From a virus: a stretch of DNA of 29,047 nt. The translations under genes were made by a program, and so were the position numbers. The stretch lies in the IMG/VR virus record IMGVR_UViG_3300017742_000075, positions 1 through 29,047 of that record; one strand, 5' to 3'. Shown here in pieces: positions 11,220 through 24,100 of the stretch (position 1 is its first letter; every line of letters starts with the position of its first letter). The notes under the pieces are model-generated. The model did no database searches, had not been told where the DNA came from, and worked only from the letters and a program-made list of their open reading frames with translations.

Positions 11220-11599
11220 TGTCATCATCAAAAATCTACAAAGGAACACTCACTCCAATACATAACAGAGTAATAGTTACTGATATGGAATTCGGCGAGC
11301 AAAAAACTGCTGGCGGAATTATCATTGCATCAGATGACGGACAAGCAAGAGGTATTCATCCACGTTGGGGGAAAGTTTTTGCTATTGGTCATGAGAACGA
11401 TGACGATTACGAAATAGGTGATTGGATTTTGGTTGAACATGGCAGATGGAGTAGAGGTGTTACTATGGAAGATGAAAATGGTATCAAAACTGTTGTTCGT
11501 GTTGTAGAAGCAGAATCTATTCTAGGAACTTCCAAAGAAAAACCAGCAGATGTATTGTCCAGAAGAGTAGACAACGATGCATCATATTTGACTGAATAA
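11219..11599 (+). CDS. 31: GroES-like co-chaperonin (T4 gp31 type)
   Basis: This 126-residue protein has the GroES beta-barrel pattern. The start PIHNRVIVTDMEF is followed by a mobile loop containing AGGIIIASDDG (residues 31-41), where the hydrophobic GGIII corresponds to the GroEL-contacting tripeptide of GroES. A GKVFAIGHE strand, a GDWILVEHGRW strand and a C-terminal extension of about 25 residues follow. T4 gp31 replaces GroES on host GroEL to fold the major capsid protein, and the same role is likely here. The RGIHPRWGKV segment is what I recall from cyanophage gp31 homologues. It is translationally coupled to the preceding gene. Confidence 0.85.
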   Translation: MSSSKIYKGTLTPIHNRVIVTDMEFGEQKTAGGIIIASDDGQARGIHPRWGKVFAIGHENDDDYEIGDWILVEHGRWSRGVTMEDENGIKTVVRVVEAESILGTSKEKPADVLSRRVDNDASYLTE

Positions 11600-11602
11600 T
11601 AC

Positions 11603-11631
11603 TTGACAAATTGCAGTATATCACATATACT
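11603..11631 (+). promoter_or_regulatory. Sigma70-like promoter predicting a leaderless mRNA
   Basis: TTGACA (11603-11608), a 17-nt spacer and TATACT (11626-11631) end exactly 6 nt before the ATG at 11638. The -10 region TCACATATACT closely matches TCACATATAAT of the promoter at 10283. The geometry favours the ATG at 11638 over the upstream in-frame ATG at 11611, which lies inside the promoter. Confidence 0.75.
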
Positions 11632-11637
11632 GTACGA

Positions 11638-11805
11638 ATGAAACTTCCAGTAATACAATCTAAAGGATTAAACACAACCGGAGTAACTGGTATTGTGTTA
11701 ATGACATTACATCTAACAAACACCATCACAGGTTGGGGTTGGCCCGTTCTGTATATCATTTTAATATTAAGTGGTATGGGACAAGAATATATGAGGAGAG
11801 ACTAG
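11638..11805 (+). CDS. Small membrane protein upstream of the clamp loader
   Basis: This 55-residue protein has two hydrophobic stretches (GVTGIVLMTLHL and WPVLYIILILSGM) separated by a short polar loop, and a basic C-terminus. An in-frame ATG at 11611 is unlikely because it lies within the promoter. The stop codon overlaps the GTG start of the clamp-loader gene by 1 nt (TAGTG), so reading through this ORF probably helps translate it. I do not recognise a family. Confidence 0.6.
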   Translation: MKLPVIQSKGLNTTGVTGIVLMTLHLTNTITGWGWPVLYIILILSGMGQEYMRRD

Positions 11806-12719
11806 TGAAAGACTTATGGGTAGAAAAATATAGACCTAAAACATTAAGTGAATATGTTTTTAGAGATGATCATCAACGTAAACAAGTAGAACAATGGGTA
11901 AAAGAAAAAACTATTCCTCATTTACTATTCAGCGGTAATGCAGGTATAGGTAAAACTACATTGGCAAAAGTATTATTCAATGAACTTGAAGTAAATGATT
12001 TAGATATATTAGAAATAAATGCAAGTAGAACAAACAGTGTAGATGATATAAGAAATACAATCATTAACTTTGTACAAATGATTCCTTTTGGTGACTTTAA
12101 AATTGTACTACTAGATGAAGCAGATTATCTATCACCTAATGCACAGGCGGCATTGCGTGGTGTGATGGAAGAATATCACACAACAAGTAGATTTATTTTA
12201 ACTTGTAACTATCCCAACAGAATTATTCCTGCACTGCACAGCAGATGTCAAGGTTTTCATATAGAACGTATTGACCAAACAGAATTTACCACAAGAGTTG
12301 CTAAAATTTTAATGGATGAAGGCGTAACTCCGGACTTAGATATATTAGACACATATGTAAAAGCAACATATCCAGATTTAAGAAAATGTATTAACACTGT
12401 GCAAATGAATTCACAAGAAGGCACACTGATTGCTCCTGCGAATGCAGACAAAGGCGAAGCAGATTATAAATTAGAAATGACCGAATTGTTCAAAGCAGGC
12501 AAGATCACTGAAGCAAGAAAACTAGTGTGTAGTCAAGCACGTCCAGATGAGATTGAAGACATTTACAAATGGTTGTATGATAACATTACATTGTTCGGTG
12601 ACGAAGCACGTCAAGAAAAAGCAATATTGGTTATCAAACAAGGATTAGTAGATCACACATTAGTTGCTGATCCAGAAATAAATCTTGCGGCTACAATGAT
12701 TAAACTACAAAATATTTAA
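11805..12719 (+). CDS. 44: Sliding-clamp loader large subunit (T4 gp44 type AAA+ ATPase)
   Basis: The 304-residue protein matches the gp44/RFC clamp-loader family: it opens the sliding clamp and loads it onto primed DNA. After an N-terminal LWVEKYRPKTL (typical of RFC subunits) come Walker A GNAGIGKTT (residues 44-52), Walker B VLLDEAD (101-107) and the SRC motif with the arginine finger (146-148), followed by the lid and C-terminal collar helices. T4 gp44 is 319 residues. I chose the GTG at 11805 because AGGAG lies 6 nt upstream and the LWVEKYRP start then falls at the N-terminus; a longer reading from 11733 would add residues unrelated to the family. The partner gp62 and clamp gp45 are not in this window. 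Confidence 0.93.
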   Translation: MKDLWVEKYRPKTLSEYVFRDDHQRKQVEQWVKEKTIPHLLFSGNAGIGKTTLAKVLFNELEVNDLDILEINASRTNSVDDIRNTIINFVQMIPFGDFKIVLLDEADYLSPNAQAALRGVMEEYHTTSRFILTCNYPNRIIPALHSRCQGFHIERIDQTEFTTRVAKILMDEGVTPDLDILDTYVKATYPDLRKCINTVQMNSQEGTLIAPANADKGEADYKLEMTELFKAGKITEARKLVCSQARPDEIEDIYKWLYDNITLFGDEARQEKAILVIKQGLVDHTLVADPEINLAATMIKLQNI

Positions 12720-12720
12720 A

Positions 12721-12891
12721 ATGCGTAATTGGTTCAAAGTTTGGTTATATGCTCTCGGCAGTTTTTCAGATAAGAAAACTAAACCTTACGACAAACAAGT
12801 TGCTCTAGTAAGAACTTTTTGGGTAGTGCTACACATATTAACTTGCACTATGATAATTGTAGGCAATGGTAGAATATTAGGTTGGTGGTAA
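12721..12891 (+). CDS. Small membrane protein
   Basis: This 56-residue ORF starts 1 nt after the clamp-loader stop. It has a basic/aromatic N-terminus (MRNWFKVWLYALGSFSDKK) and one membrane segment near residues 31-48 (VVLHILTCTMIIVG), ending RILGWW. Similar small proteins occur near this place in marine T4-like phages in my recollection. The tight packing supports a real gene; its function is unknown. Confidence 0.6.
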   Translation: MRNWFKVWLYALGSFSDKKTKPYDKQVALVRTFWVVLHILTCTMIIVGNGRILGWW

Positions 12892-12892
12892 A

Positions 12893-13138
12893 ATGAAAAT
12901 TAGATATTACAAAAATATTGATGGTTGGAGATGGTTAGGTTTTATACTAGCGATGGTGAGTGCTTTCTTATTAAGCAGTGGTCAATCAGAAATACAATGG
13001 ATAGGTTGGGCTGTTGCTTGTTTCAGTTGCAGTATATGGATTAGAATGGGAATGAAAGATAAAGACACACCAAGAGCATTAATGGAGTTAATGTATTTGC
13101 TTTTAGCAATAAGAGGTGTGTGGAACTGGTTGTCATAA
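12893..13138 (+). CDS. Small membrane protein with 2-3 hydrophobic segments
   Basis: The protein has 81 residues. Hydrophobic stretches lie at about 14-28 ([15 protein letters not shown]), 36-50 ([15 protein letters not shown]) and 65-75 ([11 protein letters not shown]), separated by short charged loops. It starts 1 nt after the preceding stop, and its own stop overlaps the ferredoxin start (TAATG). It is probably a phage membrane protein. No family is recognised and no function can be given. Confidence 0.6.
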
Positions 13139-13461
13139 TGACTTATGTGGTTAATGATAAATGCATCATGTGTAAACACACTACCTGTGTGTCCGTTTGC
13201 CCTGTAGATTGCTTCTATGAGGGCGACAATATGCTGGTTATTAAACCCGACGAGTGTATTGATTGTGGTGTGTGTGAACCAGAATGTCCTGAAGATGCCA
13301 TCAAAGCAGACACAGATCCTGAGGGAGAAGGTTGGGTAGAGTTTAATAGACAATGGGCAGAAGCATGGCAAGTATTAGACACACAAAAAGAACCAATGCC
13401 AGGCTACGAAAAGCATTCAGGCGAAGCAGACAAATTAAAGAAATATTTTAAAGACAAATGA
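13138..13461 (+). CDS. fdxA: Seven-iron ferredoxin (FdxA type, 3Fe-4S plus 4Fe-4S)
   Basis: Counting from the ATG at 13138 this 107-residue protein has the full FdxA pattern. Cys9, Cys17 and Cys50 fit the [3Fe-4S] ligands, and Cys21, Cys40, Cys43 and Cys46 the [4Fe-4S] ligands. The conserved [10 protein letters not shown] and [15 protein letters not shown] segments are present, and the tail ([12 protein letters not shown], then KKYFKD) also matches. The spacing matches Azotobacter FdI (shifted by one). In-frame ATG 13120 is less likely because FdxA proteins start MTYVV. It would carry electrons in the infected cell. Plausible partners are ThyX-linked flavin chemistry or the 2OG-Fe(II) enzyme, but this is speculative. 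It looks host-derived, and its start overlaps the preceding gene. Confidence 0.93.
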
Positions 13462-14087
13462 TCGTAGAACTAGTAGACAAAATGGGTACAGACTTATCTG
13501 TGGTGAATGCCGCAAGAGTAAGTTACAGTAAAAACAAAGAAACATTTGAAGCATCAGATGAAAAATTAATCAAGTATCTCGCTGAACACAATCACTGGTC
13601 TCCTTTTGCTCATGCATCATTACAATTTAGAATCAAAGCACCAATATTTGTAGCAAGACAACTTGTGAAACATCAAGTTGGTTTAGTATGGAATGAAGTA
13701 TCAAGACGATACGTTGACTTTCCGCCTGAATTATACAGCACAAAAACATGGAGAGGTAGACCACAAAATTCTAAACAAGGCAGTGCTGGCGAAATTGATT
13801 TAGATCCCACAATGAAACATATGATGGAAACAACAATGGAAAGTTGTCTAATTTTATACAATGCATTGATACAAAAAGGTGTAGCACCAGAACAAGCACG
13901 TATGGTTTTACCACAAAATATGATGACCGAATGGTATTGGTCAGGCACACTATATGCCTTTGCTAGAGTTTGCAATCTACGTTGTGCTAAAGATACTCAA
14001 GAAGAAACACGTGATGTAGCAGATAGAATACATAATATTTGTAAAGAGGAGTTTCCAGCAAGTTGGAAGTATTTAAAAAATGAGTAG
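13458..14087 (+). CDS. thyX: Flavin-dependent thymidylate synthase ThyX
   Basis: The 209-residue protein has the ThyX framework: HWSPFAHA (46-53), the signature region [21 protein letters not shown] (65-85) and the C-terminal [10 protein letters not shown] and [14 protein letters not shown] segments. It makes dTMP from dUMP using FAD and methylenetetrahydrofolate, supplying thymidine for phage DNA. The signature differs from the classical RHRxxSxNExSxRY. The first three residues are KHQ and one residue appears inserted before NE, a form I recall in other marine phage ThyX proteins. Its ATG overlaps the ferredoxin stop (ATGA) and its end overlaps the parvulin gene by 8 nt. Activity should be checked because of the altered signature. 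Confidence 0.88.
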
Positions 14088-14421
14088 ATGTAGTCACATA
14101 TTAATTGCACACGAAGACGCAACAAGAAGTCAACGAAATGTATCAAGAGAAGAAGCATTATTTTTAATTGCTGATATTCAAAAAAAGATGTTGGACAACG
14201 AATTAACATTCGAACAAGCCGCAAAAATGTACAGCGATTGTCCAAGCGGAAAAGCCAATGGTGGTGATCTAGGAATAATAAAACGTGAACAGATGGATAA
14301 AGATTTTATGATTTACCTAGACGGATTACAGCCTGGTGACACCAGCGGTATTTGTTGTACAGCATTTGGTTTCCACATTATTCGTAGAAATCAAGATGTA
14401 ACTATAAATCAGTCTCCGTAA
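14080..14421 (+). CDS. Parvulin-type peptidyl-prolyl isomerase
   Basis: This 113-residue protein matches single-domain parvulins (PpiC-type rotamases). It has CSHILIAHEDA at the N-terminus, a helical part (FEQAAKMYSDCPSG), then GGDLGIIKREQM and the terminal GFHIIRR strand. It would speed cis-trans isomerisation of X-Pro bonds, in the cytosol since there is no signal peptide. Its start lies inside the end of thyX (8-nt overlap), so it is probably translated by coupling. Its end overlaps the convergent phoH gene by 13 nt. Its use to the phage, perhaps in folding virion proteins, is inferred. Confidence 0.85.
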   Translation: MSRCSHILIAHEDATRSQRNVSREEALFLIADIQKKMLDNELTFEQAAKMYSDCPSGKANGGDLGIIKREQMDKDFMIYLDGLQPGDTSGICCTAFGFHIIRRNQDVTINQSP

Positions 14422-15122
14422 ATACTTAATACTTCTTTGACTGCTTCGTGCCGTTGAACATCACTTTTAACAAAATTAACCAAATCAATTAAATTACTTG
14501 ATTGATGATTAAGTCTTTCAATGAAGTCAGACAATCCATTGTCATTGGGTCTATCTGTCTGAGCGAGATCTCCAGTTACTGCTAATTTGCTTCGACTGCC
14601 TATTCTCGTTAACAACATCTTCATTTGATTTGCAGAGGCGTTTTGCATTTCATCTGCCACTATGTAACAATTATGAAAAGTTCTACCACGCATAAAAGCC
14701 AATGGAGATATTTCAATTACACCTTCGAACAGCATATTTTGTATGTCTGCTGTGGTAAAGTATAATTTAAACACATCGAATATAGGTATGGTCCATGGAG
14801 CCATCTTTTCCTCTAAATTACCTGGAAGGAAACCTATGTCTTCATCAACACTTACTACTGGACGTGTTACTACTATCTTATTGACTTGTTTTTCTTTGAA
14901 CATTTTGATAGCCACCTGAACAGCAATCAACGTCTTTCCAGTACCTGCTGGTCCTACACCAAAGACAATGTCTTTGCTTGGACTTAACAGTTTAAGAAGA
15001 TAAGATTCCTGATTAACGTTTCTAGGAACGATCTTAACATCTTGTGGTTTTTCTGGAAGGTATTGTTTGATTGGCAGGACGTTTGCCCTGTTCTGGCGCT
15101 TTCTGGACGTTTTTTTACCCAT
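14409..15122 (-). CDS. phoH: PhoH-family ATPase
   Basis: This is the only clear minus-strand gene. The 237-residue protein has the PhoH core: Walker A GVGPAGTGKT (55-64), a TRPVVSVDEDIGFLPG block (86-101), Walker B VADEMQNA (155-162) and TGDLAQTD (183-190). The first 25 residues are basic (GKKTSRKRQNR). I start it at the ATG at 15122, which has AGGAG 5 nt upstream (15128-15132); the GTG at 15128 would overlap that Shine-Dalgarno. PhoH is an NTP-binding protein widespread in marine phages; its molecular role is not settled. The gene converges with and overlaps the parvulin gene. Confidence 0.92.
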   Translation of the reverse strand: MGKKTSRKRQNRANVLPIKQYLPEKPQDVKIVPRNVNQESYLLKLLSPSKDIVFGVGPAGTGKTLIAVQVAIKMFKEKQVNKIVVTRPVVSVDEDIGFLPGNLEEKMAPWTIPIFDVFKLYFTTADIQNMLFEGVIEISPLAFMRGRTFHNCYIVADEMQNASANQMKMLLTRIGSRSKLAVTGDLAQTDRPNDNGLSDFIERLNHQSSNLIDLVNFVKSDVQRHEAVKEVLSIYGD

Positions 15123-15167
15123 TAGCACTCCTTTGTTTATTAAGCAAAATATTTGTTTGCATACTAT

Positions 15168-15175
15168 TATTTACG
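15168..15175 (-). promoter_or_regulatory. Possible late-type motif upstream of phoH
   Basis: The minus strand reads CGTAAATA, differing from GATAAATA at two positions, about 45 nt upstream of the phoH ATG. It is the best motif in the 125-nt divergent gap but is weak. Confidence 0.25.
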
Positions 15176-15202
15176 GTATATCATAGGAGACATAAATGCT
15201 CA

Positions 15203-15220
15203 CATAAGTTTGACCTTATG
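15203..15220. repeat. Perfect 6-bp inverted repeat in the phoH divergent region
   Basis: CATAAG (15203-15208) and CTTATG (15215-15220) flank a 6-nt loop (TTTGAC). The right arm runs into the late motif at 15220. It is too AT-rich for a strong terminator and could be an operator or chance. Confidence 0.35.
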
Positions 15221-15227
15221 ATAAATA
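15220..15227 (+). promoter_or_regulatory. T4-late-type promoter motif GATAAATA
   Basis: GATAAATAC lies 20 nt before the ATG at 15248, with AAAGGT as a possible Shine-Dalgarno between them. It would start the rightward unit beginning with the gene at 15248. Confidence 0.65.
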
Positions 15228-15247
15228 CATAAAAAAGGTATCATTCA

Positions 15248-15760
15248 ATGCAAGACATAAAAGACGTTATAAAAACCATAGAAAATGTGTACGATAACGA
15301 CACAGCATTCACTATTCTTAAAGATTTTGAACGTGTGCTAGATGAATTAAATCTATACGTTTATGACAATTGGCAAGATGGTGAATTAGCAGAAGGACCT
15401 CAAATTTTAAGACATTTTGTAACTTGCACGTTCATGTGGCCTAGAGACAAAATGCCAGATCCAGATGGTGGCAAAAGACTTACAGATTATGGTTGCAAAG
15501 TTTTTTATAAAAAAGACGTATATGTGTATCCAAGACAAGTGCTACAATCAAATGATTTTAGACCAGGCACTAAAAAAGGTAAACTAGATCAAATGCCAAT
15601 ATGGTTGGTAACTATCAGAATGCCTAAAGATTTAATCAGAACAATATACAGCGGATACGAAGTAGAACAGGAATACAACAAAGAACCTGCCAATGCAGAA
15701 ATAGTTGACGGCAGTCAATCTGTTGAAGCCGCAGACGAAGTTGCACCAGAAGGTTTATAA
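15248..15760 (+). CDS. Conserved T4-like marine phage protein of unknown function
   Basis: This 170-residue protein carries a strongly patterned middle (VYDNWQDGELAEGP, TCTFMWPRDKMPDPDGGKRL, GCKVFYKKDVYVYPR) that I recall from T4-like cyanophages, and an acidic C-terminal tail (residues 140-170). There is no membrane segment and no catalytic motif that I recognise. It follows a late-type motif, and its stop overlaps the start of the next gene (TAATG), so the pair is probably co-translated. A virion or assembly role is suggested only by late-type control. Confidence 0.65.
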   Translation: MQDIKDVIKTIENVYDNDTAFTILKDFERVLDELNLYVYDNWQDGELAEGPQILRHFVTCTFMWPRDKMPDPDGGKRLTDYGCKVFYKKDVYVYPRQVLQSNDFRPGTKKGKLDQMPIWLVTIRMPKDLIRTIYSGYEVEQEYNKEPANAEIVDGSQSVEAADEVAPEGL

Positions 15761-16485
15761 TGGGTTTAAGACAGAACGATTTAGAATATACAATCGATAA
15801 CGTTTTTGAAATTGATTCTTACAAATCAAAAATGGGTGACGATGCAGATATTGTTACATTAAGTTTTGCTGTGAAAGGCGATCAACCTTCAGAAGATTTA
15901 GTAAAGTTTATTGAAACAGGTTATGACTTTGTACTAGATGCTGATAAAACATCAGGCGAACAATCAGATGGAAAATACAGAGTATTTGTTGAAATTGAAC
16001 GTTCAAAAAAATCTCCAGATCAAATAATAGAAATTTTAGATGGTATAAAAAAGATTTCAAATCAACAAGATTTACGTTTTAGATATTACAAAAATTTTAG
16101 AAGTCATACAGCAGATGAATCTAGCATCAATGAACAATTGCCGTTGGATCCAGGAGCATATGATATCAAAACTAATGAAACGCAGATGGAGAACTACAAG
16201 AACTTCTTTGCTGATAGTTATATTGATGAAGTGTATATGGAAAACAACACTGTAATTTTAACCAAAAAATATGCTGATACACTGATGTTTGAATTTGTAG
16301 ATATGGGATTCAAAACACAAATAATTGAAAGTATAGAGGAGTCGATCCAAATCGAAGCCTTTCCAGAAGTGATTTTCTTAAGTAAGTATGTAGGTGATTA
16401 CAACATTACTAAATTTGGTAACAAATTGGTATTTGAAAATAAAGGTCACTGCGTAGTACTGGAGAAAAAATATGCGACTATCTAA
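15760..16485 (+). CDS. Conserved T4-like marine phage protein of unknown function
   Basis: The 241-residue protein begins GLRQNDLEYTIDNVFEIDSY, then has KSKMGDDADIVTLSF, an ATP-grasp-free mixed alpha/beta pattern (DGKYRVFVEIERSKK, LRFRYYKNFRSH) and a repeated-looking C-terminal part in which short VILTKKYA and CVVLEKKYA strands recur. I recall the N-terminal segment as conserved in marine T4-like phages, paired with the preceding gene, but know no function. It overlaps the M15 peptidase start by 14 nt. Confidence 0.65.
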   Translation: MGLRQNDLEYTIDNVFEIDSYKSKMGDDADIVTLSFAVKGDQPSEDLVKFIETGYDFVLDADKTSGEQSDGKYRVFVEIERSKKSPDQIIEILDGIKKISNQQDLRFRYYKNFRSHTADESSINEQLPLDPGAYDIKTNETQMENYKNFFADSYIDEVYMENNTVILTKKYADTLMFEFVDMGFKTQIIESIEESIQIEAFPEVIFLSKYVGDYNITKFGNKLVFENKGHCVVLEKKYATI

Positions 16486-16933
16486 AAATTTTACATTAGC
16501 AGAATTCACAAAAAGCCAAACAGCAACACGAAAAGGTCTTGATAACACACCCAATGAAGAACATCTAGCCAATGCGGCGGCACTGTTTGAAAATGTGGTA
16601 CAGAAAGTCAGAGAGAACTTTGGCGTTACAGTAATCAATTCAGGATACAGAGGACCAGCACTCAACGAAGCAGTAGGCGGTTCAAGTAAATCACAACACT
16701 GCAAAGGCGAAGCAGTTGATATTGAATGTCCAGGCACAGGCAATTATGATGTATCCAAATGGATTGAAGCCAATTGTGACTTCGATCAATTGATATTAGA
16801 ATTTTATACTCCAGGCATACCAGATTCAGGTTGGGTACACGTTTCATACAAGTCAGAAGGCAACAGAAAAAGTGTGCTTACTGCCATGAAGGAAAACGGA
16901 AAAACTGTTTACAAGCCTGGTTTAATAGAATGA
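16472..16933 (+). CDS. M15-family zinc peptidase, probable endolysin
   Basis: This 153-residue protein has the fold pattern of the M15A D-Ala-D-Ala carboxypeptidase group. INSGYRGPALNEAVGGS leads to SQHCKGEAVDIE, giving zinc ligands His76 and Asp83. The WVHVSY segment supplies His123, and Glu110 in LILEFY is a candidate catalytic residue. Such enzymes cut peptidoglycan peptides, and a short single-domain protein fits an endolysin. GGAG lies 7 nt upstream of the ATG. There is no signal peptide, so it would need a holin to reach the wall. Spanin-like and holin-like genes follow within 4 kb. A tail-associated wall peptidase is the alternative. Confidence 0.85.
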   Translation: MRLSKNFTLAEFTKSQTATRKGLDNTPNEEHLANAAALFENVVQKVRENFGVTVINSGYRGPALNEAVGGSSKSQHCKGEAVDIECPGTGNYDVSKWIEANCDFDQLILEFYTPGIPDSGWVHVSYKSEGNRKSVLTAMKENGKTVYKPGLIE

Positions 16934-17439
16934 AGACTGAACAATTCATCACAGCATTTCATCACGAAGATTTAGAACCAAACATTGAGTTAGAAAATCA
17001 CTGTAAAGAAAAAAATTTAGAAGACGTAAAAGAACACAACACATCTTTCTTTGAAGAAAATCAAGAACAATTAGCAAAATTATTCATTCCTGTGGTAAAA
17101 GACTTTTGGAAAGAAGTTGGAATCATGCACGGGTACACCAGTTTTAGATTGAAACATCTCTGGATACAACAATACAATCCAGGACATTCTCATAGATTAC
17201 ATATACACAGTCCACTCAAAAACGAATGGTCATTTGTGTACTATGTAGATTGCAATGAAGATTCAGCAAATACAGTGTTTTACAATTTTGGATATCCATA
17301 TGTAGATCACCATCACTTTAAAATCAAGCCTAAAAAGGGCAGATGTGTGCTGTTTCCAGGAGCATTACCCCATGAAGCCGAGCCAAATGTTGAAAACAGC
17401 AGATTGGTAATAAGTGGCAACATGGCATTTGATAAATAG
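16930..17439 (+). CDS. 2-oxoglutarate/Fe(II)-dependent oxygenase
   Basis: The 169-residue protein starts at the ATG overlapping the peptidase stop (ATGA); an upstream in-frame start at 16831 would run far back into that gene. It matches phage 2OG-Fe(II) oxygenases of the double-stranded beta-helix fold. HSHRLHIHSP supplies candidate iron ligands around His91/His93 and leads into EWSFVYYVD. RCVLFPGALPHEAEPN supplies the distal His148, and SRLVISGN supplies Arg158 for 2-oxoglutarate. It hydroxylates or otherwise oxidises an unknown substrate. These enzymes are common in T4-like marine phages. The site inside the lysis region need not mean a lysis role. Confidence 0.85.
   Translation: MKTEQFITAFHHEDLEPNIELENHCKEKNLEDVKEHNTSFFEENQEQLAKLFIPVVKDFWKEVGIMHGYTSFRLKHLWIQQYNPGHSHRLHIHSPLKNEWSFVYYVDCNEDSANTVFYNFGYPYVDHHHFKIKPKKGRCVLFPGALPHEAEPNVENSRLVISGNMAFDK
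17431..17438 (+). promoter_or_regulatory. T4-late-type promoter motif GATAAATA
   Basis: GATAAATA overlaps the oxygenase stop codon and ends 15 nt before the ATG at 17454. It would start the spanin-containing unit. The overlap with the stop (aaa tag) makes chance possible. Confidence 0.5.
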
Positions 17440-17453
17440 TAGCATATAACATT

Positions 17454-17603
17454 ATGGCTACAGATACCAAAAAATACTGTCTAAACTGTGGATATGAAGC
17501 TCATAGCGAGCCTTTGTATAGAACAGAGAAAGACTACGATGGAAGAGAATACAAAATTGAGGTGTGTAGACACAGTCGTAGTGGAGAATTGGAAACAGAA
17601 TGA
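17454..17603 (+). CDS. 49-residue zinc-ribbon-like microprotein
   Basis: The ORF encodes 49 residues with Cys9-x2-Cys12 (YCLNCGYEAH) and Cys38-x-His40 (VCRHSRSG), a spacing compatible with a small zinc-binding site. Its stop overlaps the next ATG (ATGA), and a late-type motif lies just upstream, so it is probably a real gene. I know no named family and no function. Confidence 0.6.
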   Translation: MATDTKKYCLNCGYEAHSEPLYRTEKDYDGREYKIEVCRHSRSGELETE

Positions 17604-18076
17604 TATTTGGACAAATAAAAATGATGATCACAATCTTGCTAATCACAGGAATAGCAGGAGCAGGTATCTATGTGATGAAATTGAGAGCAGACAATGCCAC
17701 ACTCAAAGCAAATCAAATTAAATTAGAAACAGCAGTTGAAGAACAGAACAAAGTGTTGGAGCAACAAAAAGAAGATTTCACAGCAATATTGGAAAGCAAC
17801 AAAAAACTTAATGTGTTAATCAACACATTTAAAAAAGATTTACAAGACCTAGACAAAAGATTCACAAAGAAAAATAGAGACATCGGCAAACTGGCACTAG
17901 AAAGAACAGAATCAATTGAAAGAATTGTCAACGGTGGTGGTAAGAATGCCGCAAGATGTATCGAGTTGGCATCAGGTGCAGAACACACTGAAGAAGAATT
18001 AAAAGCAACATTGAAATCAGAAATTAACCCAGAGTGCCCGGCACTTGCAAATCCAAACTATGTACCATTTAAATAA
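17600..18076 (+). CDS. Probable inner-membrane spanin (Rz-like)
   Basis: The 158-residue protein has an N-terminal membrane anchor (about residues 8-25, MMITILLITGIAGAGIYV) followed by a long charged coiled-coil region (to about residue 115). A short C-terminal part with two Cys (ARCIELAS, NPECPAL) completes it. This is the architecture of an i-spanin, which joins an outer-membrane lipoprotein to span the periplasm and fuse membranes at lysis. The next gene is a lipoprotein overlapping its end, as expected for Rz/Rz1 pairs. There is no sequence-level family match that I can assert; the call rests on topology and gene order. Confidence 0.65.
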   Translation: MIFGQIKMMITILLITGIAGAGIYVMKLRADNATLKANQIKLETAVEEQNKVLEQQKEDFTAILESNKKLNVLINTFKKDLQDLDKRFTKKNRDIGKLALERTESIERIVNGGGKNAARCIELASGAEHTEEELKATLKSEINPECPALANPNYVPFK

Positions 18077-18416
18077 AATATTAGCAGTAGCATTTATAGT
18101 ATTACTAACAGGTTGTAGTATAGGTGGCGAAAAGAAAATTAAAATTTTCTCTGTTGAACAGCCAAGAGAGAAATTAGATTATCCATTACCAACACCTTTG
18201 CAAATGGAAGAGATCTACTGGCACATCATTACAAGTGAAAATGCAGAAGAAGTATTTAAAAAATTAGAAGAAGCAGGCATAGACCCTGTGTTGTTTGGAA
18301 TAACAGACAAGGATTTTCAAGTACTTGCTAGAAACTTTGCACAAATAAGACAGAAGTTGCAAGAAACAAATAACTTGTTACAAGAATATCAAAAATATTA
18401 CGAGGGTGATGAATAA
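18060..18416 (+). CDS. Probable outer-membrane spanin lipoprotein (Rz1-like)
   Basis: From the ATG at 18060 the 118-residue protein has a type-II signal peptide: a basic/hydrophobic N-terminus (MYHLNKILAVAFIVLLTGCS) with lipobox L-T-G-C and lipidated Cys19. A mature part of 99 residues follows, mostly helical (EEVFKKLEEAGIDP, FAQIRQKLQETNNLLQEY). A TTG at 18045 is an alternative start but less likely. It overlaps the preceding i-spanin-like gene by 17 nt in another frame, the classic spanin arrangement. The mature part is longer and less Pro-rich than lambda Rz1, so another lipoprotein role is possible. Confidence 0.65.
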   Translation: MYHLNKILAVAFIVLLTGCSIGGEKKIKIFSVEQPREKLDYPLPTPLQMEEIYWHIITSENAEEVFKKLEEAGIDPVLFGITDKDFQVLARNFAQIRQKLQETNNLLQEYQKYYEGDE

Positions 18417-18871
18417 TGAAAAGATTAGATTTAAGCGATCAAACAGCAATCAGTATGCCAATGAAAAATTTGATATCCATAGTGGCGGCAGTCGCAGTTG
18501 GAGTATGGGGATATTTTGGTCTAGTAGAAAGACTTACACTTTTGGAAATGCAAAACGCATCACTAACAAAAGATCTAGAACACGCAGAACAAAAACTTAC
18601 AGCAGACATTGAGAAGAATAACGAATTCAGAATTAAATATCCAAGAGGTGAGTTAGGACAGAGCTCACAGGACATAGAACAGTTTATGCTAATAGAAGAC
18701 CTTTACACTACTGTGGATAGAATGCAAAAGCATCTAGACAGTATGTCTAACAACAAAATTAACATAGAGTTTCTTAACAAGCAAATGGAAAAAGCACAGG
18801 CAAACATCGAAGCACTCAAAGACGCTGACAGAGAAATTGTATACAAAAATGGTAATGGAGACTCACACTAA
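18416..18871 (+). CDS. Membrane-anchored coiled-coil protein
   Basis: The 151-residue protein has one membrane segment (about residues 19-36, LISIVAAVAVGVWGYFGL) followed by helices rich in Glu, Lys and Gln. A FRIKYPRGELGQ motif and an EQFMLIEDLYTTVDRM segment, which I recall as conserved in T4-like cyanophages, are also present. The start overlaps the preceding stop (TAATG). It probably works with the adjacent spanin-like genes or as a further lysis/membrane factor, but its function is unknown. Confidence 0.6.
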   Translation: MKRLDLSDQTAISMPMKNLISIVAAVAVGVWGYFGLVERLTLLEMQNASLTKDLEHAEQKLTADIEKNNEFRIKYPRGELGQSSQDIEQFMLIEDLYTTVDRMQKHLDSMSNNKINIEFLNKQMEKAQANIEALKDADREIVYKNGNGDSH

Positions 18872-19083
18872 TGATAGAAACCGTTGTAGCATTGTTGATG
18901 ATTATAAATGGTGAGATTAAAGAACATCGTATCCAAGACAACATGGCGGCTTGCCTAAGAGGTAAACGTACAGCAGAAAGAAGTTACAGTTCTGGAACCA
19001 AATATCAATGTCTCAAAGTAAAAGCAGAACTTGAGTCCAACATAGACGGTAGTAGATCAATTAAGAAAATCATACTGGAGTAA
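18871..19083 (+). CDS. Small conserved protein with a hydrophobic N-terminus
   Basis: The 70-residue protein begins with a short hydrophobic stretch (METVVALLMII-like, residues 2-13), then has two Cys (MAACLRGK and YQCLKVK) and a basic, charged C-terminus (DGSRSIKKIIL). The hydrophobic start may be a signal or anchor. It overlaps the preceding gene's stop (TAATGA), and I recall similar proteins in marine T4-like phages. Function unknown. Confidence 0.6.
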   Translation: MIETVVALLMIINGEIKEHRIQDNMAACLRGKRTAERSYSSGTKYQCLKVKAELESNIDGSRSIKKIILE

Positions 19084-19091
19084 GATAAATA
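19084..19091 (+). promoter_or_regulatory. T4-late-type promoter motif GATAAATA
   Basis: GATAAATAC starts just after the preceding stop codon and ends 25 nt before the ATG at 19117. AAGGAAA at 19108-19114 serves as the Shine-Dalgarno. Confidence 0.7.
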
Positions 19092-19116
19092 CTACCAGTT
19101 AAAGAAAAGGAAACAT

Positions 19117-19710
19117 ATGGAATTAAGTATAGTAGGACTAGCAATGAAATTTTGGCAATGGACAGTGTTAATCGCTGTTGTTATTGTTGCCGCGATAATC
19201 AACTTCACAGACAAGAGAGCAAAAACAAAATTAAAATTCAATTACAAAGGAATGCCTAAATTACAACCTGTACCAATAGCAACTAAAGGAAAAGGTTTTT
19301 GGAAAGGTATTGTGATGTGGTTACTTTCTACAAGAAATTGGGTATTAACTGATGACTGGAAATACAACATAGACGGAGAAGAATATGTGATCCCAGCAGG
19401 TTTCCAATTTGATGGTGCTAGTATTCCCAAGTTTCTAAGAACTTTCTTTTCACCAGTTGGTGTATTGTTAATAGGTGGACTTGTTCATGACTATGCATAC
19501 AAATACAAAACACTTTTAAAGAAAAACAAAAAAGACACAATGGGTGAACTTACACAAAAAAGAGCAGATGAAATTTTTAGAGACATCAACATAATTGTAA
19601 ACGGATTCTACACAATGAACAGACTTGCATATTGGTCATTGAGAATAGGTGGCTTTGTTGCTTGGAACGGACACAGAAAAAGAAACGCAAAAATTAAAGG
19701 TGTAAAATAA
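19117..19710 (+). CDS. DUF1353-family phage protein
   Basis: The 197-residue protein has an N-terminal membrane segment (about 10-28) and then the DUF1353 pattern WVLTDDWKYNIDGEEYVIPA, GFQFDGASIP and GGLVHDYAYKYK (ending near residue 130). A basic C-terminus closes it. DUF1353 proteins are widespread in tailed phages and often sit near lysis genes, but the function is not known. Conserved His/Asp in HDYAY could be catalytic. It is followed by a holin-like gene with overlapping stop/start (TAATG). Confidence 0.8.
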   Translation: MELSIVGLAMKFWQWTVLIAVVIVAAIINFTDKRAKTKLKFNYKGMPKLQPVPIATKGKGFWKGIVMWLLSTRNWVLTDDWKYNIDGEEYVIPAGFQFDGASIPKFLRTFFSPVGVLLIGGLVHDYAYKYKTLLKKNKKDTMGELTQKRADEIFRDINIIVNGFYTMNRLAYWSLRIGGFVAWNGHRKRNAKIKGVK

Positions 19711-20048
19711 TGGCTGAGCAATTAAAAGAAGATAAATTGGTAGTACCAGCAGACAAAGAAACTGCAAAGAAAAAAGTTAAAGTTGAATTGGAAGTAGATA
19801 CTTCTGTAAAAGATTTAGGGCCAAATCCATATGCGAAATTGATTCATCTAGCAAGAGCAATTGATGCCTGGAGAATATTCCCAAGAGTTTTCATTACAAC
19901 ATACATCATTCTTTTATACAAATGTGTAATTTGGTATATGAATTTACCAAGTCCTAGCATGGAACAATCAGGTTTAATATCTATTGTTGTTGGTGCGGGT
20001 GCGGCATGGTTTGGTTTGTATACTGGATCAAGAGCAAAATCCAAATAA
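19710..20048 (+). CDS. Holin-like small membrane protein
   Basis: The 112-residue protein has a charged N-terminal 45 residues (EDKLVVPADKETAKKK), then two hydrophobic segments (about 57-76, RVFITTYIILLYKCVIW, and 88-105, ISIVVGAGAAWFGLYTGS) joined by a short loop. The VVGAGAAWFGLY block resembles holins of other marine phages in my recollection. The holin makes the inner-membrane lesion that lets the endolysin reach the wall. The position at the end of the lysis region supports this. A general membrane protein is the alternative. Confidence 0.6.
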   Translation: MAEQLKEDKLVVPADKETAKKKVKVELEVDTSVKDLGPNPYAKLIHLARAIDAWRIFPRVFITTYIILLYKCVIWYMNLPSPSMEQSGLISIVVGAGAAWFGLYTGSRAKSK

Positions 20049-20053
20049 TATCG

Positions 20054-20082
20054 TTGACTTTTAAACCAAAATCCTATACAAT
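20054..20082 (+). promoter_or_regulatory. Upstream sigma70-like promoter before dnaJ (distal)
   Basis: TTGACT (20054-20059), a 17-nt spacer and TACAAT (20077-20082) lie about 65 nt upstream of the dnaJ ATG. Six nt after the -10 there is a GTG, followed by ACT TTT AAA TAT TAA, a possible 5-codon leaderless ORF. TTGACTTTTAAA recurs in altered form at 20089 and 20113. Confidence 0.45.
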
Positions 20083-20112
20083 ATAGTTGTGACTTTTAAA
20101 TATTAAATACTA

Positions 20113-20140
20113 TTGACATTTAAAAAAGAATTACTATATT
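20113..20140 (+). promoter_or_regulatory. Sigma70-like promoter of dnaJ, predicting a leaderless mRNA
   Basis: TTGACA (20113-20118), a 16-nt spacer and TATATT (20135-20140) precede the ATG at 20147 by exactly 6 nt. There is no Shine-Dalgarno. The geometry matches the promoters at 10283, 11603 and 27460. Confidence 0.7.
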
Positions 20141-20146
20141 AAACAC

Positions 20147-20992
20147 ATGGATTATTATAAAACACTAGGCGTAAATCGAAACGCATCCGAATCAGAAATC
20201 AAACAGGCATATAAAAAACAAGCCATGAAACACCACCCTGATAAAGGCGGTGATAGTTCTCAATTTCAAAAAGTCAATGAAGCATACGACACACTTAAAA
20301 ATCCACAAAAGAAAACACACTATGATAGATTTGGTACTAGTCCTGGAATGAATCAAGGAGGAAATCGTTCTTATGAATTTAGAACAGATGACTTTCCGCA
20401 GGATATAGGAGATGTGTTTAATCAGTTCTTTGGCGGAGGTGGTAGTCCATTTAGAAGACAGCAACAAAGAAAAAATAGAGACATCATAATAGAAGCACAA
20501 ATAGAATTGGAAGATGTTTTGAAAGGTAAAGAATTAGTTGCTTCATACAGATTAACTAATGGTCGTGAGCAGAGTGTTAACTTAACATTACCTAAAGGTA
20601 TTGAAAACAACAGCACAATTAAATTTCCTTCATTAGGAGATGATTTACAAAAGCACTTACCTAGAGGCGATTTACTTGTAAGAGTAAAAATTAGACCCCA
20701 TGCCAAATGGGCAAGAGATGGTATAAACTTACACGGTATTGAAAGAGTAAATGTTTTCGATTTAATGTTGGGCACAAAACAAACTGTTAAAACACTAGAA
20801 GGAAGAAATTTAGCAATTACGGTTCCTAAAGGCACACAACCTGGAACTGTATTAAGTATTAGTGAACAAGGTCTTCCAACAAGAGGTGGTGGCAGAGGCA
20901 ACATTTATTTGACAATACAAGCAGACATACCTTCAGTAAGCAAACAAGAATGGGTAGAAACACTAACAAAGTTACGCAATGAAATTAATTAA
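20147..20992 (+). CDS. dnaJ: DnaJ/CbpA-type J-domain co-chaperone
   Basis: The 281-residue protein starts with a J-domain with the HPD motif at 30-32, flanked by the expected helices (ESEIKQAYKKQAMKHHPDK). A Gly/Phe-rich linker (about 62-105) comes next. Two beta-rich C-terminal substrate-binding domains follow from about 108, with the usual GDLLVRVKI and GRNLAITVPKGT segments. There is no CxxCxGxG zinc domain, so it is the CbpA type (type II, shorter than E. coli DnaJ at 376). It would recruit host DnaK. Its end overlaps def by 14 nt, making an operon with def and clpA. Confidence 0.93.
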   Translation: MDYYKTLGVNRNASESEIKQAYKKQAMKHHPDKGGDSSQFQKVNEAYDTLKNPQKKTHYDRFGTSPGMNQGGNRSYEFRTDDFPQDIGDVFNQFFGGGGSPFRRQQQRKNRDIIIEAQIELEDVLKGKELVASYRLTNGREQSVNLTLPKGIENNSTIKFPSLGDDLQKHLPRGDLLVRVKIRPHAKWARDGINLHGIERVNVFDLMLGTKQTVKTLEGRNLAITVPKGTQPGTVLSISEQGLPTRGGGRGNIYLTIQADIPSVSKQEWVETLTKLRNEIN

Positions 20993-21470
20993 AGCACCAG
21001 ACGAATTTTTAGAAAAAAAAGTTAATGATTTTGACTTTACAAAAATGGATGCAGAAAAGATATCTTCTGAAATGTTTAATATTATGAAAAAATATGAAGG
21101 TGTAGGACTAGCCGCAAACCAAGTAGGAATAGATGCACAAATTTTTATTATGGGTGAAGATAAACCTATGACCATTATCAATCCTTTGGTAACTGAAGTA
21201 AGTACTAACCAAGTGGAAATGATGGAAGGTTGTTTAAGTTTTCCTGGGCTGTTTATGAAAGTCAAAAGACCAGACACAGTGGGAGTAAAATACCTTGACA
21301 TACAGCAAAAAGAATGTATAATTAAGTTAGTAGGATTTCATGCAAGAGTTTTCCTACACGAATACGACCATCTTCAAGGCATTACCTTTGATCAAAGAGT
21401 TTCAAAAATGCGTTTGGATATGGCAAAAAAGAAACAAGAAAAAATATTAAAAGGATTTATTAATGGTTGA
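20979..21470 (+). CDS. def: Peptide deformylase
   Basis: This 163-residue protein has all three deformylase motifs: GVGLAANQVG (41-50), EGCLSFPG (83-90) and FLHEYDHLQG (125-134). The metal ligands are Cys85, His127 and His131, and Glu128 is the catalytic residue. It removes N-terminal formyl groups from nascent proteins at the ribosome exit. The usual Ile before DH is Tyr. It overlaps dnaJ upstream (14 nt) and clpA downstream (8 nt), so the three genes are translated as one unit. Phage-encoded deformylases are known in marine phages. Confidence 0.95.
   Translation: MKLIKAPDEFLEKKVNDFDFTKMDAEKISSEMFNIMKKYEGVGLAANQVGIDAQIFIMGEDKPMTIINPLVTEVSTNQVEMMEGCLSFPGLFMKVKRPDTVGVKYLDIQQKECIIKLVGFHARVFLHEYDHLQGITFDQRVSKMRLDMAKKKQEKILKGFING
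21295..21322 (+). promoter_or_regulatory. Perfect consensus sigma70 promoter inside def
   Basis: TTGACA (21295-21300) and TATAAT (21317-21322) with a 16-nt spacer lie inside def, about 140 nt upstream of clpA. It could give clpA extra early expression, but a chance match inside AT-rich coding sequence is possible and no ATG sits 6 nt downstream. Confidence 0.35.
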
Positions 21471-23712
21471 ACCTAGTGGTGCTTTACAAAGTGTTTTCGA
21501 TAGAGCAGTAAAGTTATCTAAATCTTACACGCACGAATATGTTACTCTTGAACATATGTTGTTTGCTATGTGCGAAGATCAAAAATTTTGCGATATCTTA
21601 AAAGGTTATGGTACTGATGTAGACAGTTTAAAATCACATTTGATAACTTATTTGGATAACAAACTAGATGGCATCAAAGTAAAAGTAGCCAAGTATAAAC
21701 CAAAGAAAACTATAAGTGTTGAAAGAGTGCTTAACAGAGCATTTACTCAAGTGTTGTTCAGTGGTAGAACTAATATTGATTTAACAGATGTATTTTTAAG
21801 TTTAATGAGCGAAACAAAAAGTTGGGCATACTATTATCTAGTTGAAGCAAAAGTTGATAAAGATAAGTTTATGGATTATCTACACAGCGAAATTGAAGAA
21901 ATATATGAAGATGAAGTTGATCAAAGTGAAACTAAAAGAGCACTTAACAAATACACATCAAACTTAAATGCTGAAGTTAAGAAGAAAAAAATTGATCCTG
22001 TAATAGGAAGAATTGATGAGTTAAATCAGATAGCATTAACCATTGGACGTAGAATGAAAAACAATGTTATCCTAGTAGGTGATCCTGGAGTTGGTAAAAC
22101 TGCTATTGCTGAAGGACTTGCATTTAATATAGTCAACGAAACTTGTCCAGACTTTTTAAAAGGATATGAGGTTTACAATTTAGATATAGGTGCGATGTTG
22201 GCTGGATCTAAATACCGAGGTGATTTTGAAGAACGATTCAAAATGGTTTTAAATGGTTTAAAGAAAAAAGGTAAAGCAATCTGTTTTATAGATGAAGCAC
22301 ACAATATTTCAGGTGCTGGAGCAGGTGGTGGCGGAAATACTGCAAACGACTTGGCTAATCTTTTAAAACCAGTATTAACAAAAGGTGAATTAAAAGTAGT
22401 TGCTTCTACTACTTGGGAAGAATACAGAAAGTATTTTGAAAAAGATAGAGCATTAATGAGACGTTTTGCTAGAATAACTGTGGACGAACCAGACAAAGCA
22501 ACCACATTAGAAATATTACATGGTCTTAAAAAATACTACGAAGAATATCACAATGCAACTATAACAGATGATGCGATTACTTCTGCTGTAAAATTAAGTA
22601 TAAAATATCAAACAGATAAAAAATTACCGGATAAAGCAATAGACTTAATTGATTTGGCTTGTTCACGATTTAATTTAAAAGACAAACAGTCTGACAGAAC
22701 TGTAAACGACGAAGCAATTCAATTTGAATTATCTAAACTAGTGAAAATGCCTGTAGAAAATATTGCTGAAAAAGAATCCAGCAACCTTGCTAATTTATCT
22801 AAGAATATGAAAGCCAATGTGTACGGACAAGATGATGCAATAGATATGGTCGTAGACAAAGTACTTGTTGCTCAAGCAGGTTTAAAACGTGATAACAAAC
22901 CTATTGGATCATTTGTATTCATGGGTCCAACAGGTTGTGGTAAAACTGAAACTGCCAAACAGTTGTCTGAACAACTAGGAGTTAAATTAATAAGATTTGA
23001 TATGTCAGAATATCAAGAAAAACACGCAGTGGCAAAACTGATAGGATCACCTCCAGGTTATGTTGGGTTTGAAGAAAACACAGGATTATTGGTTACAAAA
23101 CTACAAGAGAATCCTAATTGTGTTTTATTGTTAGATGAAATAGAAAAAGCCCATCCAGATGTTTCACAGATATTGTTACAGATTATGGACGAAGGATCAA
23201 TTCAAGGTAATAATGGTAAAACAGCAAGTGCTAAAAACATAGTGCTGATTTTAACTACAAACCTTGGTGCTGAAGAAAATGAAAAAAATGTAATGGGATT
23301 CGGTGCAGTGAAAGATTCTACATATGATACTAAGGATATTAAACGTTATTTTGCTCCTGAATTTAGAAATAGATTAGATGGCACAGTGGTATTCAAAAAA
23401 CTTGCTAAAGAAGTATTGATTAAAATTGTTGGCAAGTTTATGTTGGAATTAAAAACACAACTAAAAGAAAAAGATGTAGCATTAGAACTTACAGATGAAG
23501 CAATAGATTATCTAGTAGAAAATGGTTATGATGCTAAAATGGGTGCAAGACCTATGCAAAGATTAATTGATAATAAGATTAAGAAAGACCTTTCAAAAGA
23601 ATTACTGTTTGGATCGCTTAAAAATGGCGGTACAGTGAAGGTTACAGTGAAGGATAAAGAATTGGTTTTAGACGTCGGTGACGGTGTTAAACTGCTTGAA
23701 AAACAAGCCTAA
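21463..23712 (+). CDS. clpA: ClpA-type AAA+ unfoldase
   Basis: The 749-residue protein matches ClpA (E. coli 758). It has an N-terminal Clp-repeat domain (1-140) and a first AAA+ domain with Walker A GDPGVGKT (206-213), pore loop KYRGDFEER (250-258) and Walker B CFIDEAH (274-280). A second AAA+ domain has Walker A GPTGCGKT (488-495), pore loop GYVGF (532-536) and Walker B LLLDEIEKAH (555-564). It has no ClpB middle domain. The hydrophobic loop that docks on ClpP (IGL/IGF in bacteria) is MGF at 611-613. It would unfold proteins for host or phage ClpP; no clpP lies in this window. It overlaps def by 8 nt. Confidence 0.95.
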   Translation: MVEPSGALQSVFDRAVKLSKSYTHEYVTLEHMLFAMCEDQKFCDILKGYGTDVDSLKSHLITYLDNKLDGIKVKVAKYKPKKTISVERVLNRAFTQVLFSGRTNIDLTDVFLSLMSETKSWAYYYLVEAKVDKDKFMDYLHSEIEEIYEDEVDQSETKRALNKYTSNLNAEVKKKKIDPVIGRIDELNQIALTIGRRMKNNVILVGDPGVGKTAIAEGLAFNIVNETCPDFLKGYEVYNLDIGAMLAGSKYRGDFEERFKMVLNGLKKKGKAICFIDEAHNISGAGAGGGGNTANDLANLLKPVLTKGELKVVASTTWEEYRKYFEKDRALMRRFARITVDEPDKATTLEILHGLKKYYEEYHNATITDDAITSAVKLSIKYQTDKKLPDKAIDLIDLACSRFNLKDKQSDRTVNDEAIQFELSKLVKMPVENIAEKESSNLANLSKNMKANVYGQDDAIDMVVDKVLVAQAGLKRDNKPIGSFVFMGPTGCGKTETAKQLSEQLGVKLIRFDMSEYQEKHAVAKLIGSPPGYVGFEENTGLLVTKLQENPNCVLLLDEIEKAHPDVSQILLQIMDEGSIQGNNGKTASAKNIVLILTTNLGAEENEKNVMGFGAVKDSTYDTKDIKRYFAPEFRNRLDGTVVFKKLAKEVLIKIVGKFMLELKTQLKEKDVALELTDEAIDYLVENGYDAKMGARPMQRLIDNKIKKDLSKELLFGSLKNGGTVKVTVKDKELVLDVGDGVKLLEKQA

Positions 23713-23746: not shown

Positions 23747-24100
23747 ATGCCAGCAACAAGCGAAATAATGTTATCAGCAACAACACATCCGGGCGATAGT
23801 ACGGTTGAAACAGTTGTAAGTGGAGAATTTAAAGGTGACGGATACTACGGTAGATCCGACGGTTTCCACACTGTGCAGATTAATGTTAACGGCATTTCAG
23901 GAACAATACAAATGCAAGGTACACTAGCAACAACACCAGCAACTGCTGATTGGTTCAATATTGATGGTACTTTATATGACAGTACAACTGCCGGTAAAGA
24001 CGGTGCTTTCGTGTACAATTTTACAGGAAACTTTGTGTGGTTAAGAGCAAGTATTTCCTACACAGATGGAACAATTAACAGTATATTATTAAATCATTAA
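23747..24100 (+). CDS. Small strand-rich structural protein
   Basis: The 117-residue protein is made of Thr/Gly/Asn-rich strands (ETVVSGEFKGDGYYG, HTVQINVNGISGTIQMQG, FVYNFTGNFVWLRASISY) and looks like a compact beta-sandwich of the type found in phage tail or fibre-tip proteins. It has a late-type motif upstream but no clear Shine-Dalgarno. I recall similar small proteins in pelagiphages and cyanophages. A structural role is likely; its position in the virion is not known. Confidence 0.6.
   Translation: MPATSEIMLSATTHPGDSTVETVVSGEFKGDGYYGRSDGFHTVQINVNGISGTIQMQGTLATTPATADWFNIDGTLYDSTTAGKDGAFVYNFTGNFVWLRASISYTDGTINSILLNH

Follow-up and report, generated by a model that had tools for sequence, protein, structure and literature searches.

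Why should a phage line up genes for a J protein, a peptide deformylase and a ClpA-type unfoldase? The question is raised by 29,047 nucleotides of DNA from a marine virus of bacteria (IMG/VR record IMGVR_UViG_3300017742_000075, positions 1 to 29,047; this whole stretch is called the window below), in which dnaJ, def and clpA follow one another, intact and on one strand, with overlaps of 14 bp (dnaJ/def) and 8 bp (def/clpA). We lean slightly towards the answer that this trio is one half of a conserved two-locus protein quality-control system of phages. Locus 1 would consist of dnaJ-(def)-clpA and, after it, a gene for a virion protein; locus 2, which lies outside the window and is seen in relatives, would be hsp20-(dnaK or tk, for thymidine kinase)-clpS, with ClpP genes elsewhere. 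Single chaperone and Clp genes of phages are already known, their role being unclear; where one genome combines the dnaJ-(def)-clpA unit with the hsp20-clpS unit and ClpP, genes that looked like scattered auxiliaries become a system open to testing. Such genomes point to phages that run their own protein folding and turnover, possibly in hosts too streamlined for the task.

The order recurs well beyond the window. Among 47 viral ClpA-type loci, 40 have a J gene directly 5' of clpA or separated from it by def; three (L035, L044, L057) hold less than 450 bp upstream of clpA and were not judged for adjacency, and four (L060-L063, 32-33%) are ClpB-like outgroups with no J gene. Ten of the 40 (L010-L019) were fetched by DnaJ alone, so that the unbiased count for loci reached through ClpA is 30/30. 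Eight of the 45 loci found with the ClpA query (L046, L049, L050, L052-L056) start within clpA and are not part of that count, and many of the viral ClpA contigs are near copies of one another. The adjacency nevertheless spans considerable divergence, DnaJ being only 34-45% identical to that of the window in 29 of the 40 loci. Because def lies between the two genes in 21 of the 40 loci and is absent from 19, the stable unit is the dnaJ-clpA pair and Def is optional. The earlier note on this DNA had tied deformylation of nascent chains to unfolding; this part of it needs changing, since def is not a constant of the family.

Three of nine isolate neighbourhoods also have dnaJ before clpA: Sinorhizobium phage Phosso (PV764938), in the exact order dnaJ-def-clpA, and, with no def in the cluster, Agrobacterium phage Atu_ph07 and Pseudomonas phage PA5oct (NC_071039), whose J domain was confirmed. 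The ClpA tree, from which L019 was left out, leaves a single origin of the pair neither shown nor excluded: the dnaJ-linked label needs two changes, 27% of bootstrap trees need only one, and PA5oct sits on a long, weakly placed branch.

The three proteins look intact. In a profile search of the window proteins, DnaJ matched PF00226 (8.5e-22) and PF01556 (2.8e-30). The HPD motif is present in 24/24 aligned members of its family and the zinc-finger motif CxxCxGxG in 0/24; the score against TIGR02349 (200 bits) is under the cut-off of 377 bits for the class A equivalog, and by domain content the protein has a class B (CbpA-like) architecture. Def matches PF01327 (5.5e-42) and exceeds the TIGR00079 cut-off (126.2 against 103.95 bits), which, together with its three motifs (Table 1), places it by profile among the peptide deformylases. 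ClpA scores 877 bits (1.1e-263) against TIGR02639, under the equivalog cut-off of 993, and by that standard is a divergent ClpA-type protein, not an equivalog. It aligns with E. coli ClpA residues 14-733 with no large insertion; the Walker A and B motifs of both rings, the pore loops and the Arg fingers are intact and the ClpB-type M domain is absent, the architecture of a class I Clp unfoldase. Pairwise ratios of non-synonymous to synonymous substitution rates (dN/dS) between the window and three relatives (L008, L026, L001) are 0.07-0.14 for DnaJ, 0.06-0.11 for Def and 0.04-0.07 for ClpA. Since all these values lie at about 0.04-0.14, the trio is under purifying selection and its genes are maintained; recent decay, which was considered, is not supported. 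An order unique to this genome, with degraded genes in relatives, is what the earlier note had named as fatal to its proposal; the order recurs and the genes are kept.

The tripeptide at the ClpP-docking loop of the window's ClpA, MGF, is of the IGL/IGF type. All 23 phage ClpAs aligned have [IMV]GF at this place (16 IGF, four MGF, three VGF) within variable flanks, and PA5oct ClpA, with IGF, extends this to all 24 dnaJ-linked ClpAs aligned. In ClpAs of phages without dnaJ, the tripeptide is IGV (RaK2), VGF (XaC1), IGM (121Q), VGM (BF), IGV (Vibrio 2.275) and IGY (SCTP-2). As a separate observation, it ends in F in 24/24 dnaJ-linked ClpAs and in 1/6 of the dnaJ-less ones, the others ending in V, M or Y.

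Table 1. Features of the window, with positions in nucleotides
Feature	Position	Strand	Remarks
GroES/gp31-like co-chaperonin	11219-11599	+	PF00166 9e-8; phrog_931 'head morphogenesis'
Parvulin (PPIC) peptidyl-prolyl isomerase	14080-14421	+	PF00639 1.8e-20
PhoH	14409-15128	-	Opposite strand, 5' of the block as in PA5oct (51% identity)
Virion structural protein homologue	15248-15760	+	PA5oct gp189 (38%)
Virion structural protein homologue	15760-16485	+	PA5oct gp188 (28%)
Tandem putative sigma70-like promoters of the operon	20054-20140	+	TTGACT-17-TACAAT, 20054-20082; TTGACA-16-TATATT, 20113-20140
dnaJ, class B	20147-20992	+	281 amino acids; J domain with HPD, C-terminal domain, zinc finger absent
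def, peptide deformylase	20979-21470	+	163 amino acids; motifs GVGLAANQ, EGCLS and HEYDH in the translation
Perfect sigma70-like site inside def	21295-21322	+	TTGACA-16-TATAAT
clpA	21463-23712	+	749 amino acids; two AAA+ rings after a Clp N domain; ClpP-docking tripeptide MGF
Virion-protein homologue after clpA, beta-rich domain	23747-24100	+	Homologue of PA5oct gp185

The partner proteins come from relatives. The nearest long one is G001, a linear IMG/VR contig of 148,056 bases (the contig of L008; completeness unknown) whose ClpA is 93% identical to the window's. It encodes a ClpS (PF02617, 102 bits) just 3' of Hsp20, two proteins of the ClpP family with intact Ser-His-Asp triads (102 and 97 bits), a DnaK (PF00012, 903 bits) with a GroEL gene directly before it, a parvulin, a GroES-like protein (29 bits against a cut-off of 21) and a transfer-messenger RNA (tmRNA) of the alphaproteobacterial permuted type (RF01849, 92 bits; L083 3211-3562, minus strand). 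The tag peptide of this tmRNA is ADAELVAA according to ARAGORN. ClpS, ClpA and ClpP occur together in G001, Phosso and Atu_ph07. The hsp20-clpS association is itself recurrent: hsp20 lies within 3 kb 5' of clpS in 63 of 65 viral contigs, dnaK being there in 10 of the 65. The two genes adjoin in PA5oct and are one thymidine-kinase gene apart in Phosso and Atu_ph07, the Hsp20, thymidine kinase and ClpS of the isolates being confirmed by Pfam. In three fragments closer to the window than G001 (G007, G008, G010), the first ClpP-like gene is found about 23-24 kb from dnaJ, a position that would fall past the end of the window.

Host contamination as the source of the G001 dnaK was rejected, as 13 other loci carry dnaK in phage gene order (L091-L098, L105, L144, L160, L163, L166), each sharing 17-30 genes with G001. 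A groEL gene precedes dnaK in six of them (L091-L094, L105, L163) and not in the other seven. In L091-L094 and L105, groEL is 86-88% and dnaK 89-92% identical to those of G001; L091, L092 and L105 seem to be near copies, and the whole length of L163 is identical to G001.

The recurrence of the trio's order in distant phages and the partner proteins carried by relatives suggest that much of the machinery for protein folding and degradation in the infected cell is supplied by these phages themselves. On the simplest reading, a J protein and an adaptor feed a ClpA-type unfoldase, which works with a ClpP. Genes, gene order, intact motifs, purifying selection and co-occurring partners in relatives can be read directly from the DNA; from them we infer complex formation, a ClpP partner, substrates, timing and a benefit along the following lines. 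DnaJ, with Hsp20, would hold unfolded or aggregated chains and hand them to Hsp70. A ClpA hexamer, on its own or directed by ClpS, would thread chains through its pore, to be refolded or to enter a ClpP barrel docked to it. Def would strip N-formyl groups, so that phage proteins could mature, or N termini become readable, during the burst of synthesis. Large virion proteins would thereby still be folded, and selected host proteins or failed phage proteins destroyed. The earlier note had proposed a reshaping of the host proteome, which fits the kept docking tripeptide and the ClpS, ClpP, DnaK and GroEL of relatives; the early timing that went with it is not general, as seen below. For the recruitment of DnaK, another of its suggestions, the host's protein becomes only one option, since G001 encodes a DnaK of its own.

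Several observations weigh against a two-locus system. No annotated dnaJ stands beside clpA in six of the nine isolates (RaK2, XaC1, Vibrio 2.275, 121Q, BF, SCTP-2), and the pair is therefore not obligatory. The scan for J genes beside these six solo ClpAs used a motif that would miss the J protein of PA5oct, and tblastn with the window's DnaJ covered four of the six phages (RaK2, XaC1, Vibrio 2.275 and SCTP-2). The docking loop does not appear special to the module, because the six dnaJ-less ClpAs keep a hydrophobic tripeptide too. None of the locus 2 genes is found within the 29-kb window; searches for ClpP succeeded in 7 of 31 records and those for ClpS in 3 of 10, the rest consisting mostly of fragments, many of them short. 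GrpE was found in none of 14 records. A complete N-degron pathway was sought in 10 records and not found: leucyl/phenylalanyl-tRNA-protein transferase (L/F-transferase, aat), which could come from the host, was found in none of them, nor was an M24 aminopeptidase. The ClpPs of G001 also raise a difficulty. At residues that we take to form the pocket for the IGF/IGL loop, ClpP1 is changed (L48N, Y60T, F82A, L114T, L189E) and ClpP2 has lost part of the set; the canonical ClpPs of Atu_ph07 and Phosso retain most of these residues. Since most (ClpP1) or some (ClpP2) pocket residues are lost, the partner of the phage ClpA may be the host ClpP. On the adaptor side, the ClpS of G001 keeps the residues that we take to form the degron pocket, including ND..TPM and H, and that of Atu_ph07 has lost some.

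When would the trio be expressed? The earlier note had described early-type promoters, and two sigma70-like sites do precede dnaJ (Table 1). Both are also present in L001-L007, and only the last one in L008, L009, L026 and L058. An extended element, TTGACWTTTAAA, occurs in exactly two copies in the window, both just 5' of dnaJ, a number reached in 0/100 shuffles (mean 0.09), and a third copy with one mismatch forms a -35-like repeat at 20089. Two results weigh against the promoter reading: the element shows no enrichment once two mismatches are permitted (24 copies against 21.9 expected), and sigma70-like sites over 19-25 kb are at chance level (23, against 25.5 in shuffles). In G001, a site with at least 11/12 matches lies in the 100 bp before 19 of 216 open reading frames (ORFs), where shuffles give 0.4; of these 19 strong promoters, 8 end 5-7 nt before the start. 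In the window, the second site before dnaJ has a -10 that stops 6 nt short of the ATG, and a Shine-Dalgarno sequence is not visible there (-0.9 kcal), so that the dnaJ mRNA may be leaderless. The window gene at 10318-10839 resembles dnaJ in having an early-type -10 that ends 5-7 nt before its start and no visible Shine-Dalgarno sequence; judged by this spacing, the two genes together are probable cases of leaderless mRNAs. The site inside def, both hexamers of which are kept in the window and in 5/5 relatives examined, may be an internal promoter that serves clpA, or may have arisen by coincidence from the coding sequence. In G001 the place of the tandem promoters, between dnaJ and the gene before it (L008, between 9011 and 10001), is taken by a 295-amino-acid ORF that has a strong promoter of its own; L009 has similar sequence 5' of dnaJ.

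The picture differs in a sister clade whose ClpA is 60-66% identical to the window's. There, an element NATAA[AG]TA, which resembles the T4 late promoter, lies 4-5 nt before dnaJ in 9/11 loci (10/11 if L037 is read from a downstream ATG), and an element of this type lies 5 nt before the virion-protein gene in 11/11; neither count has a shuffle control. The virion-protein gene of the window has CTAAATA 7 nt before its ATG. Late-type signals thus appear to replace early-type ones in the sister clade, and early expression would not be family-wide. Since the signal is early-type in the window's clade and late-type in its sister, the timing of expression may have been switched between clades.

Three other explanations have to be weighed, and the late-type elements bring forward the one tied to the virion. 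DnaJ and ClpA could be a foldase and an unfoldase for large tail, fibre and baseplate proteins, degradation being secondary or absent; we regard this as possible, if rather doubtful. The sister-clade elements before both dnaJ and the virion-protein gene agree with it, and so does gene order: the window and PA5oct are collinear from PhoH on the opposite strand through two virion proteins, dnaJ and clpA to a further virion protein. The last of these in PA5oct, gp185, comes directly after clpA and is marked ESI-MS/MS (electrospray ionization tandem mass spectrometry) in its record; homologues of the window's copy lie two genes past clpA in Atu_ph07 and five past it in Phosso. The predicted fold of the window protein is beta-rich (mean predicted local distance difference test score, pLDDT, 83.7) and has no PDB match at E 0.001 or better; among viral models, the named entry that it matches best is a Serratia phage BF structural protein. 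Even where dnaJ is missing, in RaK2, XaC1, 121Q and BF, ClpA stands beside tail sheath and virion genes, and a role of ClpA in virion assembly is suggested by Iyer 2021. An unfoldase that served assembly only would however not need the ClpP-docking tripeptide, which is kept, and the co-occurrence of ClpS and the early-type promoters of the window's clade also argue against it. With virion genes as its constant neighbours, the block may still have a role in morphogenesis.

That three useful but unrelated auxiliary genes merely travel together, with no joint function, is very improbable. The absence of def from 19 of the 40 loci would agree with it, as would the presence of def in phages with no clpA among the matches listed, such as cyanophages and Pelagibacter phage Mosig; dnaJ and clpA, on the other hand, are adjacent in 40/40 viral loci and in three distant isolate lineages, and stay so at the low DnaJ identities given above. 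A counter-defence role, in which phage DnaJ and DnaK would titrate or replace infection-sensing host chaperones and Clp would remove defence proteins or spare antitoxins, seems to us quite unlikely; genome-reduced SAR11-like hosts, if the host is one of these, carry few defences. The lead in its favour comes from the literature, a paper on moraphages discussing DnaJ-dependent sensing by bNACHT25 and phage heat shock proteins as a possible counter-defence (PMC12619734).

The earlier note had imagined a host that is slow-growing and short of spare chaperones. This idea would fit SAR11, if SAR11 is the host, and the phage would then add something to the cell, because among 118 genomes of the SAR11 family (at least 80% completeness requested) a full-length ClpA over the cut-off is found in 16 and ClpS in 17. 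Host assignment through DnaK failed: among the best 80 of 551 bacterial loci, G001 DnaK is 75% identical to Pelagibacteraceae and 74% to Nitratireductor, nearly equal values. Close kinship to the SAR11 phage HTVC008M was rejected, since 38 of the 216 G001 ORFs match it at 1e-5, with a median identity of 37%, and no significant match was seen in G001 for its capsid, portal, terminase, sheath or prohead protease; its Hsp20 and tail-assembly-chaperone-like protein do match. When 11 panel genes were searched against HTVC008M, only Hsp20 matched. Such a search can miss divergent copies, as deformylase is reported to be core, and present in every phage, among the pelagimyophages. A bolder version, which we put forward as rather unlikely, is that a nearly self-sufficient proteostasis network (DnaJ, Def, ClpA, ClpS, ClpP, Hsp20, DnaK, GroEL, GroES-like protein, parvulin and tmRNA) enters genome-reduced marine alphaproteobacteria that mostly have neither ClpA nor ClpS. 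If so, the infected cell would gain a regulated proteolysis pathway lost by the host lineage: the phage tmRNA would tag failed chains, and phage ClpSAP would destroy them along with chosen host proteins.

How do known systems compare? Atu_ph07 shares the dnaJ-clpA adjacency with the window, and ClpP and ClpS with G001; it differs in being a 490-kb jumbo phage with a canonical ClpP and, compared with G001, in having no DnaK match and changed ClpS degron-pocket residues. Its published description names seven Clp proteins along with ClpS and DnaJ, for which it proposes functions in clearing aggregates, in assembling virions and in replication; in the sections available the Clp genes are treated singly and not as a conserved unit (Attai 2018, PMC6102473). 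Phosso has a ClpP1-like gene 56% identical to that of G001; unlike the marine contigs, it is a 469-kb phage of a soil alphaproteobacterium, with an extra canonical ClpP and no DnaK match. As a cultured phage, on Sinorhizobium, it offers a way to test the system. PA5oct, apart from its collinear block and its hsp20-clpS, has a short divergent J protein, and ClpX and FtsH are annotated near its clpS. Moraphages are likewise large aquatic phages, with ClpA among their core groups and DnaK, DnaJ and Hsp20 in some, but their predicted hosts are mostly Bacteroidota; the word deformylase is absent from the main text, and the sections available do not describe the gene order around ClpA (PMC12619734). 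The window's ClpA resembles that of the E. coli ClpS-ClpA-ClpP system in its near full-length alignment, AAA+ motifs and docking loop, and so does the ClpS of G001 in its ND..TPM and H. In E. coli, clpS precedes clpA and aat is close by, whereas in the phages a J gene precedes clpA and no aat was found in the 10 records. ClpP, ClpS, ClpA, DnaJ and Hsp20 are described as scattered among jumbo phages by Iyer 2021. Phage Clp and chaperone genes as such are thus already published. In the openly licensed PMC literature, peptide deformylase, DnaJ, ClpA and phage together returned only an Ehrlichia paper, and no paper was found on phage-encoded DnaK or on ClpS, ClpA and ClpP in a bacteriophage genome; neither the pairing of the two conserved loci nor the assembly of the set within a single lineage was found described there.

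Two further folding genes lie near the trio, and the five together, all with hidden Markov model support, span 12.5 kb from the GroES-like gene to the end of clpA (11219-23712), as the earlier note had it. The Cpn10 domain of the GroES-like protein scores 32.5 bits against a Pfam cut-off of 21.1 and is far under the NCBIfam GroES cut-offs. The parvulin gene has no tblastn match at 1e-5 among 50,697 phage records and matches one PHROG family (phrog_16409, 1.5e-12); copies 94-98% identical are present in three near relatives (L001, L007, L008).

The altered ClpPs of G001 belong to a divergent ClpP-like family, with an intact triad and a changed docking pocket, that has 361 relatives in viral contigs (L064 and L065 of G001; L168-L247). 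A role as maturation protease is possible for this family, because no member of the S77 prohead protease family was detected in G001. Finally, the ClpA of L051 (6001-9315) carries an in-frame insertion of about 370 codons that splits the first Walker A motif; with its LAGLIDADG-like stretches and an end in HN, it looks like an intein.

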